64,000 nt of DNA from Gemmatimonadaceae bacterium (GTDB lineage Bacteria; Gemmatimonadota; Gemmatimonadetes; Gemmatimonadales; Gemmatimonadaceae): the NCBI GenBank assembly GCA_019637445.1, contig JAHBVS010000001.1, positions 717,586-781,585 on the forward strand. Reading direction: 5' to 3'. Position numbers and translations under genes: made by a program. Below, one piece after another: positions 56,204 through 61,908 of the stretch. Below the pieces are notes generated by a model that was given only the letters and a program-made list of their open reading frames with translations, did no database searches and was not told where the DNA came from. Each line of letters opens with the position of its first letter. Positions within the stretch are counted from its first letter, which is position 1.

Positions 56204-58264
56204 CTACGCCAGCCGCTCCGCCACTACCTCGGCGATGTCGTACACGGGCACCTCGGAACCCTGTGCCTTCACACCGTCGGCCATCATCGTCATGCAGAAG
56301 GGACAGGCGACTGCCACGGCGTCGGCCTTGGTCGCCAAGGCCTCCTCGGCGCGGTCCACGTTGATGCGTTTGCCGACGGTCTCCTCCATGAACATCCGGC
56401 CGCCGCCGGCGCCGCAGCAGAAGCCGCGATCCTTCGTGCGGCCCATCTCGACCAGGTTCACCACCGGCAACGCCTTCCGCAGCGTCTCGCGCGGCGCCTC
56501 GTAGACGTCGTTGTAGCGACCGAGATAGCAGGAGTCGTGGTAAGTGAAGGTGCGCACGGGGCCGTGCAGCTCCTCGCGGATTGGTACGCGGCCCTGGTCC
56601 ATCAGGTGCTCGATGTAGGTCGAGTGGTGGATGACCTCGTACTCACCCCCGAACTGCGGATACTCGTTGCCGAGTTGGTGGAAGCAGTGCGGGCAGGCGG
56701 TGACGACGGTCTTCACGCCGTACTTGCCCAGCGTCTCCACGTTCTCCTTGGCGAGCATCTGGTAGAGGTACTCGTTGCCCATACGGCGCGCGGGGTCGCC
56801 GTTGCACTTCTCTTCCTGCCCGAGGATGGCAAACTTGACGCCCGCCGCCTGCAGAATCTTCGCAAACGCCACCGTGGTCTTCTTGGCGCGGTCATCGAAC
56901 GAGCCCATGCAGCCCACCCAGTACAGCACCTCGGGCCGTTCGCCGCGCTCCGTCATCTCGGCCATCGTCGGGATGTTCATCCCCTCGGCCCACTTGGCGC
57001 GGTCACCGGGATCAAAGGCCCAGGGCGAGCCGCTGGTCTCCATGGACTCGAAGGCCGGCATCATCTCTTCCGGGAATCGCGACTCGGCGAGCACGAGGTT
57101 GCGCCTCAGCTCATTGATGACGCTGAGCTGGTCGATCGAGACCGGGCACTCGTAGACGCAGGCGCGGCAGGAGGTGCAGGCCCAGAGCTCCTCGTCGGTG
57201 ATGTAGCCGCCGAGGAGGAGCTTCTCCGAGAGGTCGGAGGGCGCGTCAGCCGTGAGGGTTGCGACGCCGCCCTCACCGGACGCCATCCACGGCGCCTTGG
57301 CCTCCAGCCGTTCGCGCACGTTGACCATGATCTTGCGCGGCGAGAGCAGCTTGCCCGTGCTTGCCGCCGGGCAGACGGCGGTGCAGCGCCCGCACTCCGT
57401 GCAGGCGAAGCCATCGAGCAGCGACTTCCAGCTCAGGTGCTCGACATCGCTGGCGCCGAACTGTTCGGCGTCCGCACCCTCGAAGTCCATCGCGCGCATC
57501 GTGCCGACCGTGCCCGGACCGCTGGTGTTCGAGAGGAAGGTGTTGGGCAGCGAGACGACGACGTGCAGGTGTTTCGAGTACGGCAGGTAGTTGAGGAAGC
57601 CGAGCACGAGCAGGGCGTGCGACCACCAGAACAGCTCGTGCATCAGGATCGGCGCGGGCATTCCGGGCTGGAAGCCAAAGCGCACGAGGATCTGCGCCAG
57701 CGGATAGCTCACGGGGAACGCACTGGCCAGCGGATCCGGCGCGGAGGCAAAGTGGAAGGCCTCCGAGAGAAACATGGTGACCATCAGCGCGCCGATCCAG
57801 CTGAGGATCAGGAGCGGATCGTTCGGGTGCGTCTCGGGGCCCTCAAGGCGCGGCACGCGATGCGTGAGTCGGCGCCACAGCGCCATCGAGACCATCGCCA
57901 GCACGATGAGCGCGAAGCCCTCCTGGCTGGCCACGTACAGGCGGTAGATCGGCTCCGGCAGGAAGTGCTCGTAGCCGAAGCTCGGGAGCACCCCGGCAAT
58001 CAACATCTCCGTGGTGCTCGCACCCAGCACGAGGAAGCCCCAGAAGATGAGCGCGTGCATGGGGCCGGCGACGCCATCGCGGAAGATCTTCCGCTGGAAG
58101 ATGCCGATGGTCAGCAGGTTGCCGACGCGGGTCGGGATCTCGGTCCAGCGCACGTCGTCGAGCCGGCCGACGCGCAGGTAGCCGACGAGGCGCTGGACGT
58201 TGTAGGCGAAGGACCCCAGCGATAGGACGAGGATCAGGGCGAAGCCGATGTGCTCTGCGGACAC
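56204..58264 (-). CDS. Membrane Fe-S/CCG-domain oxidoreductase, probable ETF:menaquinone electron-transfer protein
   Basis: A large protein with about five to six N-terminal membrane helices carrying several His residues ([29 protein letters not shown]), as in heme-b-type membrane subunits. Two 4Fe-4S motifs ([12 protein letters not shown] and [12 protein letters not shown]) follow, then two CCG-type cysteine domains ([11 protein letters not shown]..., [37 protein letters not shown]). This matches the DUF224-type membrane Fe-S protein that takes electrons from ETF to menaquinone in several bacteria. etfA and etfB lie upstream on the same strand, now separated by an inserted block. Start is GTG 58264 ([12 protein letters not shown]); a GTG at 58300 is also open. 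Neither has a ribosome binding site, and an IS relic ends about 40 bases upstream. Confidence 0.85.
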
Positions 58265-58301
58265 GGGGATAAGGTATGCCACGGTCACTGGTCCCACCAC
58301 G

Positions 58302-58486
58302 TCAGCGGGAATCGGCGAGGGCGGCCCAGCCGCCGCTGGCGAAGCGCCGCAGCCACTCGTACGCCGTGTTGGTGCTGATGCGGAGCGCAGCGGCGACAGC
58401 CGCCACCGATTCGCCGTCGACGACGACCCGGCGAACGCGCCCGGCTCGCCCGCAGACGGTCAATCGCGCGCTGTGTGGATGTTCAC
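58302..58486 (-). pseudogene. IS481-family transposase fragment, N-terminal part
   Basis: Read on the minus strand from 58486, the fragment gives N-I-H-T-A-R and, after a one-base loss, [39 protein letters not shown], the helix-turn-helix start of an IS481-type transposase. It stops at a TGA at 58302-58304 after ALADSR. The DDE domain is absent. The upstream flank (58487-58571) matches the other relic at 60846-60930. It is a dead end fragment. Confidence 0.8.
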
Positions 58487-58575
58487 TGAGGCCTCTGGCT
58501 GAAGGTTAGGTGGCTCGCACCTCCGGCTTTCTCGGTTATTCCTCGGTGAACAACCTTTTTGGAACCGACATCTAG
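58439..58575 (-). mobile_element. Left IS481-family relic end
   Basis: This block is nearly the same as 60797-60934 over about 137 bases, covering the transposase start and the terminal repeat. The terminal inverted repeat (about 58546-58571 on the plus strand) is followed by CTAG at 58572-58575, the target sequence known for Bordetella IS481. The inner end of the element is lost; its 3' side stops near the start of the Fe-S protein gene. Confidence 0.75.
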
Positions 58576-58658
58576 GCCAGAAATCGTAACGCCCTAGGCC
58601 TATTGACTTCTTCTGCGCCATCCACGACAGTTTCGTGCGAACCTCATCCGGGTCTACC

Positions 58659-59747
58659 ATGTCGTTCTCGCACACCATGCCTGCGATGCTGCTGCTCGCG
58701 GTTGCCACAGCCGCCGCTGGGGCGCAGCCGACGCTGGACCTCTCGCCCTCCTGCTCAACCTGCCGCCTTCGGTTCGAGGAAGTGGTGGCGTTTCAGGCGG
58801 ACTGGGGGTCGGGCGGCCTGCCGACGCGGCCCATGGCGGTGCATCGCTTTGCCCGGTCCCACTGGATCGTCCTCGACGCGGAGGCTGCCACGGTCTACCG
58901 CTTCGACGAGCGAGGTCGCTACGTCGGGCTGATTGCTCGGCGCGGTGCCGGCCCGACCGAGATGCAGTCGCCAACACTGTTGCTCGATTGGGGTGCCGAC
59001 TCCGTCGCGGTGTTCGACTCGGGGAACGCGAAGGCCCTCATCTTTGGACCGTCGGGGCGCCTGGAGCGAGAGGAGCGCGTTGATGTTGTGCCGACGATCC
59101 GTGCCTCTCGGCTGGCGAGCGGCGGTTTCCTCGTGGCCGGGATGATCGGTACCCATGCAGGCTTCGGGATGCCCTTCCACGAGTACTCGCGGCAAGGCGC
59201 ACTCGTGCGATCGTTCGGCTCGCCGGCGGACGCCCGCGTCGTACGGCCGAGCCAGGTGCCTACGTATCGGACGCCGATGCGGATCGCGGCATCCGGAACG
59301 TTTTGGGCTGTCGACGCGAGATCGCCAGTCATTCGACAGTTCGCGCTCGGCAACACGCAGAGGTCCGAGTGGCAGCTCCCCATGAGCGGTTTCGAGAACT
59401 TCACCACCCGACGTCCAGGTGGGGCGCACGGCGCCGAGTTCTTCACCATCGAGGAGCGATCCGACGGACTATTGATGGTGGGCATGATCTTACCAGATCC
59501 GCGCTCACTGGAAGCCGTCGGCGAGGCACGCATCGTCGATGGGCATCGCGTAACTGTCGTCGACGACTGGGGCCGCTACGTGAATACCCGGTTCTTCGTG
59601 CTCGACCCGGCGAATCGGCGATTGATCGCGACCGCCGACGAGGACGCGTACGTGTCTGGATCCCTCGGCGACGGGATGTATTGGGGCATTCGCCCCGGAG
59701 GAGATGGGGGACGGCTCGTTGTCTTGCGGGCAACCTTTTCTCGGTGA
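58659..59747 (+). CDS. Exported 6-bladed beta-propeller protein
   Basis: A protein of about 362 residues with a signal peptide (MSFSHTMPAMLLLAVATAAAGAQ). The strands such as WIVLDAEAATVYRFDERGRYVGLIARRGAGPTEM and SVAVFDSGNAKALIFGPSGRL follow the 6-bladed beta-propeller pattern (DUF5128-like). A CSTC pair lies near the mature N-terminus. It is on the opposite strand to the surrounding etf genes and lies between two IS481 relics, so it may have been acquired. Function unknown; secreted propellers of this type may bind ligands or peptides. Confidence 0.72.
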   Translation: MSFSHTMPAMLLLAVATAAAGAQPTLDLSPSCSTCRLRFEEVVAFQADWGSGGLPTRPMAVHRFARSHWIVLDAEAATVYRFDERGRYVGLIARRGAGPTEMQSPTLLLDWGADSVAVFDSGNAKALIFGPSGRLEREERVDVVPTIRASRLASGGFLVAGMIGTHAGFGMPFHEYSRQGALVRSFGSPADARVVRPSQVPTYRTPMRIAASGTFWAVDARSPVIRQFALGNTQRSEWQLPMSGFENFTTRRPGGAHGAEFFTIEERSDGLLMVGMILPDPRSLEAVGEARIVDGHRVTVVDDWGRYVNTRFFVLDPANRRLIATADEDAYVSGSLGDGMYWGIRPGGDGGRLVVLRATFSR

Positions 59748-59759
59748 GCACACCGGGAG

Positions 59760-60233
59760 ATCAGCAGCCGAGTCTTTAGGTACTTAGCAGGAGGCGTTCT
59801 GTGTGGAGTCGTCGCGGTCATGTTATCCGCGTTCTCGACACCACAGCAGCTCGATTCGGCGAACGGCGACGTCTCGCCCATCTCGATTCGCGACTGCTTG
59901 GCGACGTGCAGTTCACTGCCGTGCGGCACGACGGTCGAGCACCAGAACGTGACTGGGGGGCCGGGAGGGTTCGGGCTCGGGCGACACAGCTGTTACGAGG
60001 TGGAGCTCGGATGCGACTATCACGCATGTGCGGTGACGGGCGCGCCACCGAAGGCGGATCTTGAAGGACTCATCGAACGGTCAAACCTTGACGAGCTGCT
60101 GCGCGTCGTTCCGCGCCAGAACGTGGCGTATGTGCCAGAGCGCGGTGTCGTGCAGCTGATGGCCGACTGCGGTTCAGTCATCGCACAGCTACCAGCCACC
60201 CCAGCGGCGATGGCGCTGCTGAGCACGGAGTAG
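59760..60233 (+). CDS. Small cysteine-rich exported protein (start damaged?)
   Basis: The open part encoding MLSAFSTPQQ starts at ATG 59820 (137 residues). The frame extends up to the propeller stop, and the upstream residues RYLAGGVLCGVVAVMLSAFS look like a signal peptide without a start codon; an ATC at 59760 sits where a start would be expected. The mature part has clustered cysteines (CLATCSSLPCG, HSCYEVELGCDYHACAV, LMADCGSV). I recognise no family. It follows the beta-propeller gene by 12 bases in the same direction and may be functionally linked. Confidence 0.55.
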   Translation: MSSRVFRYLAGGVLCGVVAVMLSAFSTPQQLDSANGDVSPISIRDCLATCSSLPCGTTVEHQNVTGGPGGFGLGRHSCYEVELGCDYHACAVTGAPPKADLEGLIERSNLDELLRVVPRQNVAYVPERGVVQLMADCGSVIAQLPATPAAMALLSTE

Positions 60234-60273
60234 TTACGCAGCAACAATAGGAGTTCGAGCGAGCCCCGCCCCG

Positions 60274-60302
60274 GGGGCCACGGCTACCCGCGCCGTGGCC
60301 CC
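60274..60302 (+). terminator. Hairpin after the cysteine-rich gene
   Basis: A perfect 11-bp stem (60274-60284 with 60292-60302) closes a seven-base loop. No T stretch follows, but it sits about 40 bases after the stop of the gene pair and 88 bases before the second IS relic. Confidence 0.6.
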
Positions 60303-60393
60303 GCTGGGCGTTCGCGATCAGACACGACCTCACTCAGGAGTGTGACACCGTGGCATCCGACGTTCGCGTGACCTGCATCCAGCGTGACACTAG

Positions 60394-60930
60394 CAGTCGG
60401 TTCTAAGGACGTTGTTCACGCTGCATTGGGAAGTGCAGCAGCGGCGGGACGCGACCGAGCGACCGATGGGGCCGTTCGACGTTGTAGCAGTCTAGGCAGT
60501 CGGGCAGTGCCGCGTCGCGGTGCGCGGAGGTCCGGTACGGCTTCTAGTGGGCCCAGCGGCGGAGCGCGGCCTGCATGAAGCGCTCCGCCTTGCCGTTCGT
60601 CTCTTGTCGATAGGGCCGAGTGCGGAAGTGCCGGCAGCAGCTCCGCGTACGCGAGGCGCATGGCGTCGTCGACCGCGACGTGGAGGTGGTCCTGCCCGAG
60701 GCCGCCGCGGCGCGCGACCTTCGAGCGGTTGCCGTGCGCGCGGTGTCCGGCGGCCGCAAAGCGGTCGAGCGCCTTGGTGCCGACGTGCTCCAGTTCGCCC
60801 GGCTCGCCCGCAGACGGTCAATCGCGCGTTATTGTGGATGTTCACTGAGACCTCTGGCCGAAGGTTGGGTGGCTCGCACCTCCAGCTTTCTCGGATATGC
60901 CTCGGTGAACAACCTCTTTGGAACCGACAC
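60394..60930 (-). mobile_element. Second IS481-family relic with paired terminal repeats
   Basis: Terminal inverted repeats of about 24 bases (60396-60419 and 60905-60928, 21 of 24 matching) bracket about 537 bases. Flanking four-base sequences are CTAG (60390-60393) and CTAC (60931-60934), consistent with a slightly changed CTAG target duplication at the etfA stop. Inside is a shrunken transposase (60416-60845). It has the layout of a non-autonomous derivative. Confidence 0.8.
60416..60845 (-). pseudogene. IS481-family transposase, internally deleted and frameshifted
   Basis: Read on the minus strand from GTG 60845, it begins [16 protein letters not shown] and jumps to ELEHVGTKALDRFAAAGHRA...DHLHVAVDDAMRLAYAELLP, then, after loss of the middle of the catalytic domain, HFRTRPYRQETNGKAERFMQAAL, and finally YNVERPHRSLGRVPP. 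The usual HxD motif reads HVGTK, with the first catalytic Asp changed, and the region with the second Asp (TDNG) is missing. Frames differ between pieces. It cannot encode an active transposase. Confidence 0.85.
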
Positions 60931-61908
60931 CTACGCCTTCGCCTTCTTCACCGCCTCCGTCAGTACGGGCAACACCGCCAGCACGTCACCCACGATGCCG
61001 TAGTCGGCAATCTTGAAGATGGGCGCGTCCTTGTCCTTGTTGATCGCCACGATGGTCTTGGACGTGCGCATGCCGGCGAGGTGCTGGATGGCGCCGGAGA
61101 TGCCGCAGGCCACGTAGAGGTCCGGCGACACAAGGCGGCCCGTCTGCCCGATCTGATCGGCGTGCGGGCGCCAGCCGTCGTCGGTGACGGCGCGCGTGGC
61201 GCCAACGGCCGCATTGCCGAAGGCTGCGGCGAGATCCTCGACGAGCTTGAAGTTCGCGGCTTCCTTGAGCCCGCGACCACCGGAGATGATCACCGGCGCC
61301 TCGCCGAGGTCGAGCTTGGCGGCGTTGCCAACCGCAGTCTCCGTGACCTTCACGCGGCTGGTGGAGGGATCGCCGCTCGGCGCGAGGGTCTCCACCGTGC
61401 CGGCCTTGGCGTTCTCCTTGGGCAGGATGGCACCGGGGCGCACGCTCACCACTGCGGGTGACGCCGTCAGCGTGACTGTCTGCAGCACCTTGCCCGTGTA
61501 GCCGGGATGCGTCGCGGTGATGGCATCAGCCTTCACCTCGAACGCAGTGACGTCCGACGCCATCGGCACACCGAGCTTGGCAGCCACGCGCGGCGCGAGG
61601 TCCTTGCCCGTGGCGCTCGCCGCGCAGACGAAGCCTGCGTAGCCGCCCTTCACCTTCTCGGCGATGGTGGCCGCAACCGCCTCGGGATTGTTGTGCGTGA
61701 AGCCCGCGTGCTCGACGACGAGCACGACATCGGCCCCGTGCTTGCCCAGCGCCTCGGCGTGCTTGCCGATGCCTGGCGCACCGAAAAGAATCGCGTGCAC
61801 CTGTCCGCCCTTGGCGTCGGCGATCGTGCGGGCGGCGGTAACGGCTTCGAGCCCAGCGCGGCGGAGGTCACCACTGCGCGACTCGGCAAATGCAAGAATG
61901 TTCGACAT
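60931..61908 (-). CDS. etfA: Electron transfer flavoprotein alpha subunit
   Basis: A 325-residue ETF alpha subunit. The N-terminal domain opens with [15 protein letters not shown]. The FAD-binding C-terminal domain carries [48 protein letters not shown] and [10 protein letters not shown]. It binds FAD and shuttles electrons from acyl-CoA and other dehydrogenases. Its ATG shares one base with the etfB stop (TAATG). Its own stop codon overlaps the CTA(C/G) at the edge of the IS relic. Confidence 0.95.

Follow-up and report, generated by a model that had tools for sequence, protein, structure and literature searches.

Introduction

NVEALA peptides (PF14055) are small, cysteine-bearing and exported, and they adjoin six-bladed propellers in Bacteroidota. 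In methylamine dehydrogenase, a periplasmic propeller is combined with a small cysteine-rich subunit carrying a tryptophan-derived cofactor, and apisimin is the small secreted partner of Major royal jelly protein 1. The latter is a secreted six-bladed propeller of insects (PMC6105727). Exported propellers are also represented by PF17170 (DUF5128), the Bacteroides protein BF0058 (4raa) and DUF4221 (3s9j).

We have analysed two adjacent genes in a stretch of 64,000 nucleotides (hereafter, the window) from a Gemmatimonadaceae genome of 3.35 Mb (G000), one for a six-bladed propeller predicted to be exported and the other for a small Cys/His-rich protein. The window propeller has its fold in common with the exported propellers mentioned above, PF17170 matching it over the cutoff, and differs from PF17170 and the Bacteroides propellers in having an N-terminal CxxC and a Cys/His-rich partner gene. 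Its structure model is matched by Major royal jelly protein 1 with Z 17.6; this protein and apisimin are insect proteins, and the likeness is that of a propeller with a small partner, the sequence of apisimin lying outside the comparison. The small-protein family resembles NVEALA peptides in being small, cysteine-bearing, exported and located beside a six-bladed propeller, but it is longer and has a motif of its own. Membership in PF14055 was rejected, with no match among 24 family members up to E 0.1 and none in 21 related genomes, the window's included. The original prediction for this locus drew on short peptides beside propellers in other phyla; we regard this likeness, for which the NVEALA peptides of Bacteroidota are the example, as an analogy only. 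Methylamine dehydrogenase likewise pairs a propeller with a small cysteine-rich protein, whereas the window protein contains no tryptophan and can therefore have no tryptophan-derived cofactor; a dehydrogenase of this type was thus ruled out.

No paper mentioning NVEALA or DUF5128, or 6-bladed beta-propeller together with Gemmatimonad, was found in the open-access literature searched, and print beyond open access may differ. An unnamed conserved family whose neighbouring gene is almost constant provides a handle on function in a little-studied phylum, and the window copy appears to catch the module after transfer, with the small gene apparently losing its start.

Propeller and small gene of the window

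The propeller gene (58659..59747, plus strand) runs from ATG 58659 to TGA 59745-59747 and encodes 362 aa, which were assigned to PF17170/DUF5128 with 28.4 bits against a curated cutoff of 22.9. An AlphaFold2 model based on a 4-row alignment (pLDDT 69.8, pTM 0.74) indicates a six-bladed beta-propeller with an NHL-type fold; NHL propellers were the best matches among solved structures with Z about 21, including the NHL domain of Brat (Z 21.3, rmsd 3.5, 261 residues aligned), and exported Bacteroides propellers also match the model structurally. The N-terminus is a signal peptide as judged by eye, followed immediately by the CSTC motif (58752..58763, plus strand; alignment A2). This CxxC, consisting of C32 and C35, is invariant in 13 of 13 rows of A2, which represents the window's propeller group, and the N-terminal CxxC varies in other lineages. 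According to a rough count, 28 of 39 propellers contain two cysteines. Seven further PF17170 places were found in the window genome (C1-C4; L062, L064-L069), and the small gene is absent from the flanks examined there.

Directly after the propeller TGA and in the propeller's frame, an open frame (59748..60233, plus strand) encodes the small protein, in which what reads as a signal peptide is followed by a core rich in Cys and His and then by a conserved motif towards the C-terminus. When read from ATC 59760, the signal-peptide-like segment ISSRVFRYLAGGVLCGVVAVMLSAFS occupies 59760..59837 on the plus strand and has a hydropathy of 2.6 over 12 residues; for both proteins, signal peptides were called by eye and hydropathy. 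The core, CLATC..C..H..HSC..C..HAC, lies at 59895..60029 (plus strand; alignments A1 and A3), and the C-terminal motif RGVVQLMADCGSVIAQLP, the window form of RxALQVxGCxGxVVAxLP in the alignments, lies at 60141..60194 (plus strand). The mature part contains seven cysteines and the signal segment one more; the C-terminal cysteine is one column off the family position (ADCG versus GCxG). None of the conserved Cys, His, Arg and Gln residues is missing, and the protein matches the family model A3 with E 1.7e-23, the window being one of the 24 rows of this model. The structure model of the small protein (pLDDT 51, from a 4-row alignment poorly aligned in the Cys region) was too poor for a fold call, and a structure search with it gave no match.

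Distribution of the family and its pairing with propellers

The original prediction proposed to search for the pair elsewhere. When 179 genomes of Gemmatimonadaceae were searched with the window small protein, a single other match was obtained (E 8.2e-8, 30% identity), in a genome of another genus (G048) and again beside a propeller. The window propeller found 17 places in 12 of the 179 genomes; the small gene adjoins 11 of these places, the window included, and is absent within the flanks examined at the other six, two of which are near contig ends. Extending the search to 395 Gemmatimonadota genomes, we detected the family in 38 genomes with profile A1 (nine small proteins; E 0.01) and in 39 with profile A3 (24 small proteins; E 0.001). 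Because a homologous pair occurs in G048 and the family occurs in many genomes of the phylum, the window pair is not a product of chance.

Of the 69 family genes, 63 have a propeller on their own strand at a distance of at most 600 bp, or 40 of 46 when the A3 training rows are left out, and the pairing is seen across several families of Gemmatimonadota. These counts derive from 71 distinct frames, 65 of them with a propeller; as two of the genes are broken up into a pair of frames each, the count by gene is 63 of 69. Identical tails were counted once (two copies in G267), and the weakest propeller match accepted had E 6e-10. Chance pairing was ruled out by this adjacency together with the frequency of the propeller model, which only 1 of 610 frames in the window matches. 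The view that an exported propeller and a small Cys-rich protein form a real pair, which hinged on the small gene accompanying homologous propellers, is thus borne out, though some propellers stand without the small gene. Among 39 pairs the propeller comes first in 26 and the small gene in 13. One single-contig genome (G192) has ten family genes, all ten beside propellers; three of these small genes stand there in tandem, with propellers, at C1:3315000-3331000 (L075). The six unpaired genes are the second small gene of a tandem in G223, adjacent to the first, one at a contig end (G417), one in G383 that by eye is a fragment within a transposase-like frame, and those of G341, G356 and G406, which are described below. 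In G223 (L083/L038), one propeller is followed by two different small genes in tandem. The contigs of G048 (L003) and G050 (L014) appear syntenic by eye, the former having the pair and the latter a lone propeller.

A strict pattern scan of genome contigs, other phyla included, with a 5-row profile matched 8 stretches and gave three loci, all three being those of the query rows themselves (G400, G290, G083), and such a strict pattern may miss distant members; a plasmid search with one family member gave no match.

This distribution may recall a bacteriocin-like toxin-immunity pair, in which the small protein would attack related cells and the propeller would protect the producer. It is seldom that a small gene lacks a propeller next to it, and propellers are found on their own, as orphan immunity genes are; the distribution is sporadic (39 of 395 genomes), copies reach ten per genome with tandem arrays, and the window pair has mobile-element flanks. 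We nevertheless consider such a role unlikely, in view of the fixed set of positions with conserved residues kept family-wide and of the propeller, which to our knowledge would be unusual as an immunity protein; a linked secretion system may still lie among the neighbouring genes.

The trees of the two partners correlate with r 0.45 over 35 pairs, none of 5000 permutations being as high, with species history uncontrolled; 6 of the 41 loci had been dropped by hand, three without a propeller and three incomplete or unclear. The correlation supports co-inheritance of the two genes but may also reflect shared species history. Correlated trees, signal-peptide-like N-termini on both proteins and multiplication of the pair in some genomes would also suit a receptor and its ligand, the small protein being a secreted signal that is read by the propeller, as the original prediction had suggested. 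This appears quite improbable to us, however, because the small protein has the look of a conserved domain, about 120 residues long and bearing residues of metal or thiol type, and because no constant third gene was seen by eye among the 20 neighbourhoods listed, whose genes are unannotated and were called with a home-made gene caller.

Conserved residues and cysteine parity of the small protein

The family pattern is CxxC-H-H-C-H-C, followed after about 40 residues by RxxxQ and a C-terminal Cys, and the conserved stretch spans about 120 residues. In the 71 frames, some of which are fragments, the C-terminal Cys is conserved in 68, the Arg in 62, the Gln in 60, and the His residues in 54, 64 and 63. 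From its sequence, the small partner looks like a domain of this length with conserved Cys, His, Arg and Gln rather than a short peptide. When 24 members were compared with Pfam and NCBIfam, seven and nine families were hit (best E 0.001 and 0.0044, respectively), every one of them by a single member of the 24 and none consistently, and the best E in a PDB sequence search with the small protein was 0.32. By these searches, it belongs to an undescribed family without a consistent Pfam, NCBIfam or PDB match.

The number of cysteines between the signal peptide and the motif is odd in 35 of 35 sequences, with seven in 25, five in 6 and nine in 4; these were taken from 36 sequences (one is without the motif by pattern; that of G189 is cut short). 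A second, automated pass gave odd numbers in 51 of 53 counted frames, the two even counts of six being, by eye, slips of the anchor in proteins that really have seven; 18 of the 71 frames, including the window's, were set aside in this pass, their anchor cysteine being unplaced by the alignment. The third and fourth cysteines also tend to occur jointly: of 28 rows, 18 have both, 6 neither and 4 an even number in a single segment (Fisher P 0.0006, kinship uncontrolled), 8 of the 36 sequences having resisted parsing. In these four rows the cysteines, two or four in number, are confined to one of the two segments, which we read as a slipped histidine anchor. From the odd counts and the joint presence or absence we infer that cysteines have been gained and lost as bonded pairs, with one always unpaired among the three histidines. 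The protein is thus predicted to contain disulphides and one unpaired cysteine, a candidate thiol or metal site, and this rule, by which every mature small protein should carry one thiol that is free or one ligand of a metal, can be tested on a single purified protein. Since propellers mostly have two cysteines, the parity gives no hint that a mixed disulphide links the two proteins. For an example of an odd cysteine number, trefoil peptide TFF1, of an unrelated animal family, has seven cysteines forming three disulphides with one left over (PMC7177788).

A putative two-subunit complex and a different partner in family f6

The reading we prefer, with a probability of roughly 0.5, is that the pair constitutes a co-exported two-subunit complex. 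Both proteins would be exported by Sec to the periplasm, where the small protein may fold around disulphide pairs while one cysteine stays unpaired near three conserved histidines, forming a thiol or metal site. It would then dock as second subunit on the propeller, which may be the scaffold or the ligand-binding part. Such a putative complex is based on the adjacency and the tree correlation. Under this reading, the two genes represent one copy of a module belonging to Gemmatimonadota.

The partner is different in the family designated f6. In three of three genomes of this family (G341, G356, G406), the gene after the small one encodes a lipoprotein of some 150 residues instead of a propeller (L089 5470-5931; L190 2480-2929; L191 3424-3897). 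The matches of the three lipoproteins to ExbD/TolR are weak and all under the curated cutoff (E 0.12, 0.033 and 0.00012), and for the second lipoprotein DUF7374 is slightly better (E 0.015). Because an ExbD-like lipoprotein replaces the propeller in f6, it is suggestive that the small domain, rather than the propeller, is the constant part. This different partner and the propellers occurring on their own would agree with two independent exported proteins joined by duplication and mobile elements with no joint function. We think this very unlikely, for adjacency in 63 of 69 genes, in either order and across several families, would be hard to keep without a joint function.

Returning to the two-subunit complex, a broader and more doubtful generalization would be that such exported heterodimers form an undescribed class. 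The small domain borne by the propeller would have its reactive or metal centre in one free cysteine and three histidines, and it would be a portable active module, able to switch partners and movable by IS elements.

Insertion between IS481 remnants

The two genes are located between remnants of IS481-family elements, assigned on the basis of Pfam PF13011, PF13683 and PF00665. The left one (58312..58575, minus strand) is a fragment with one end present and is 84.5% identical to an element in G149, a genome of the same genus; the right one (60390..60933, minus strand) is an internally deleted copy with both ends present. Judged from its matched ends, the full element in G149 is about 1044 bp, and one end of the element has 13 strong matches in that genome. 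The cargo between the IS ends (58576..60389) consists of the propeller and the small gene, and the insertion is flanked on the left by an iron-sulphur (CCG domain) oxidoreductase (56204..58300, minus strand) and on the right by the ETF alpha subunit (60931..61908, minus strand). Of the 15 other genomes of the genus in which ETF alpha is present, 11 have the oxidoreductase directly beside it; in the remaining four, no oxidoreductase was detected in an ETF alpha flank of up to 1.5 kb. The cargo has a GC content of 0.65 and the window as a whole one of 0.684, with lower values than the cargo's in 5 of 208 segments of 1.8 kb, and GC3 is 0.74-0.78 in the cargo genes and 0.87-0.91 in the flank genes. 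The window copy therefore looks imported, as a cargo between IS481 remnants that was inserted into an ETF operon. As part of the two-subunit reading, the module would have entered this genome as cargo of a mobile element, the small gene losing its standard start after arrival.

Missing standard start codon

The hydrophobic signal segment extends upstream of ATG 59820 without any ATG, GTG or TTG. The distance of 12 bases originally given between the two genes holds for ATC 59760, counted from the propeller stop; ATG 59820, which is the first in-frame start of a regular kind, is 72 bases past this stop and cuts the hydrophobic segment. In the family, 34 of 39 genes (the window counted) have an ATG no more than 30 residues ahead of their signal segment, two of the remainder having GTG and one only TTG (G154), so that an ATG, GTG or TTG start is found in 37 of 39. 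The window gene is the only one of the 39 that keeps its signal segment without any of these codons, and the lost start noted in the prediction is therefore real and unusual.

Three local features may bear on initiation. A GGGAG abuts ATC 59760 with zero spacing, and for this reason the arrangement is not a normal ribosome-binding one. An AGGAGG (59789-59794) is followed in frame, with a 4-base spacing, by CTG 59799 (59789..59801, plus strand), and GTG 59801, also downstream of it, is out of frame. A GTGA overlap at the propeller stop (59744..59747, plus strand) opens another frame, which is closed by TAG 59777-59779; four relatives start at the equivalent place, where ATGA overlaps the stop of the propeller, and others begin within a few bases.

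It is possible, with somewhat less than an even chance in our judgement, that only the start is abnormal and the gene is fully functional, being initiated at a non-standard codon (ATC 59760 or CTG 59799) or through a frame change from the GTGA overlap. Retention of the conserved Cys, His, Arg and Gln, the AGGAGG upstream of CTG and the overlap starts known within the family speak for this possibility. On the other hand, ATC is without a spaced ribosome-binding site, a signal peptide from CTG would have no charged start, nearly all family genes have a regular start, and decay also occurs in G189 (L033), where a truncated propeller is alongside a small-gene core without a signal peptide. The window start may accordingly reflect rare initiation, a frame change or a newly broken gene, an assembly error being possible as well, and the lost start suggests either recent decay or rare initiation. 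Because the conserved residues are intact, any decay of the window gene would be recent. Under the two-subunit reading, the small gene is now probably silent or poorly made, unless rescued by rare initiation at ATC 59760 or CTG 59799 or by coupling to the propeller stop. Another small gene without ATG, that of G154 (L024 1460-1520), is preceded by GAAGGAGG.
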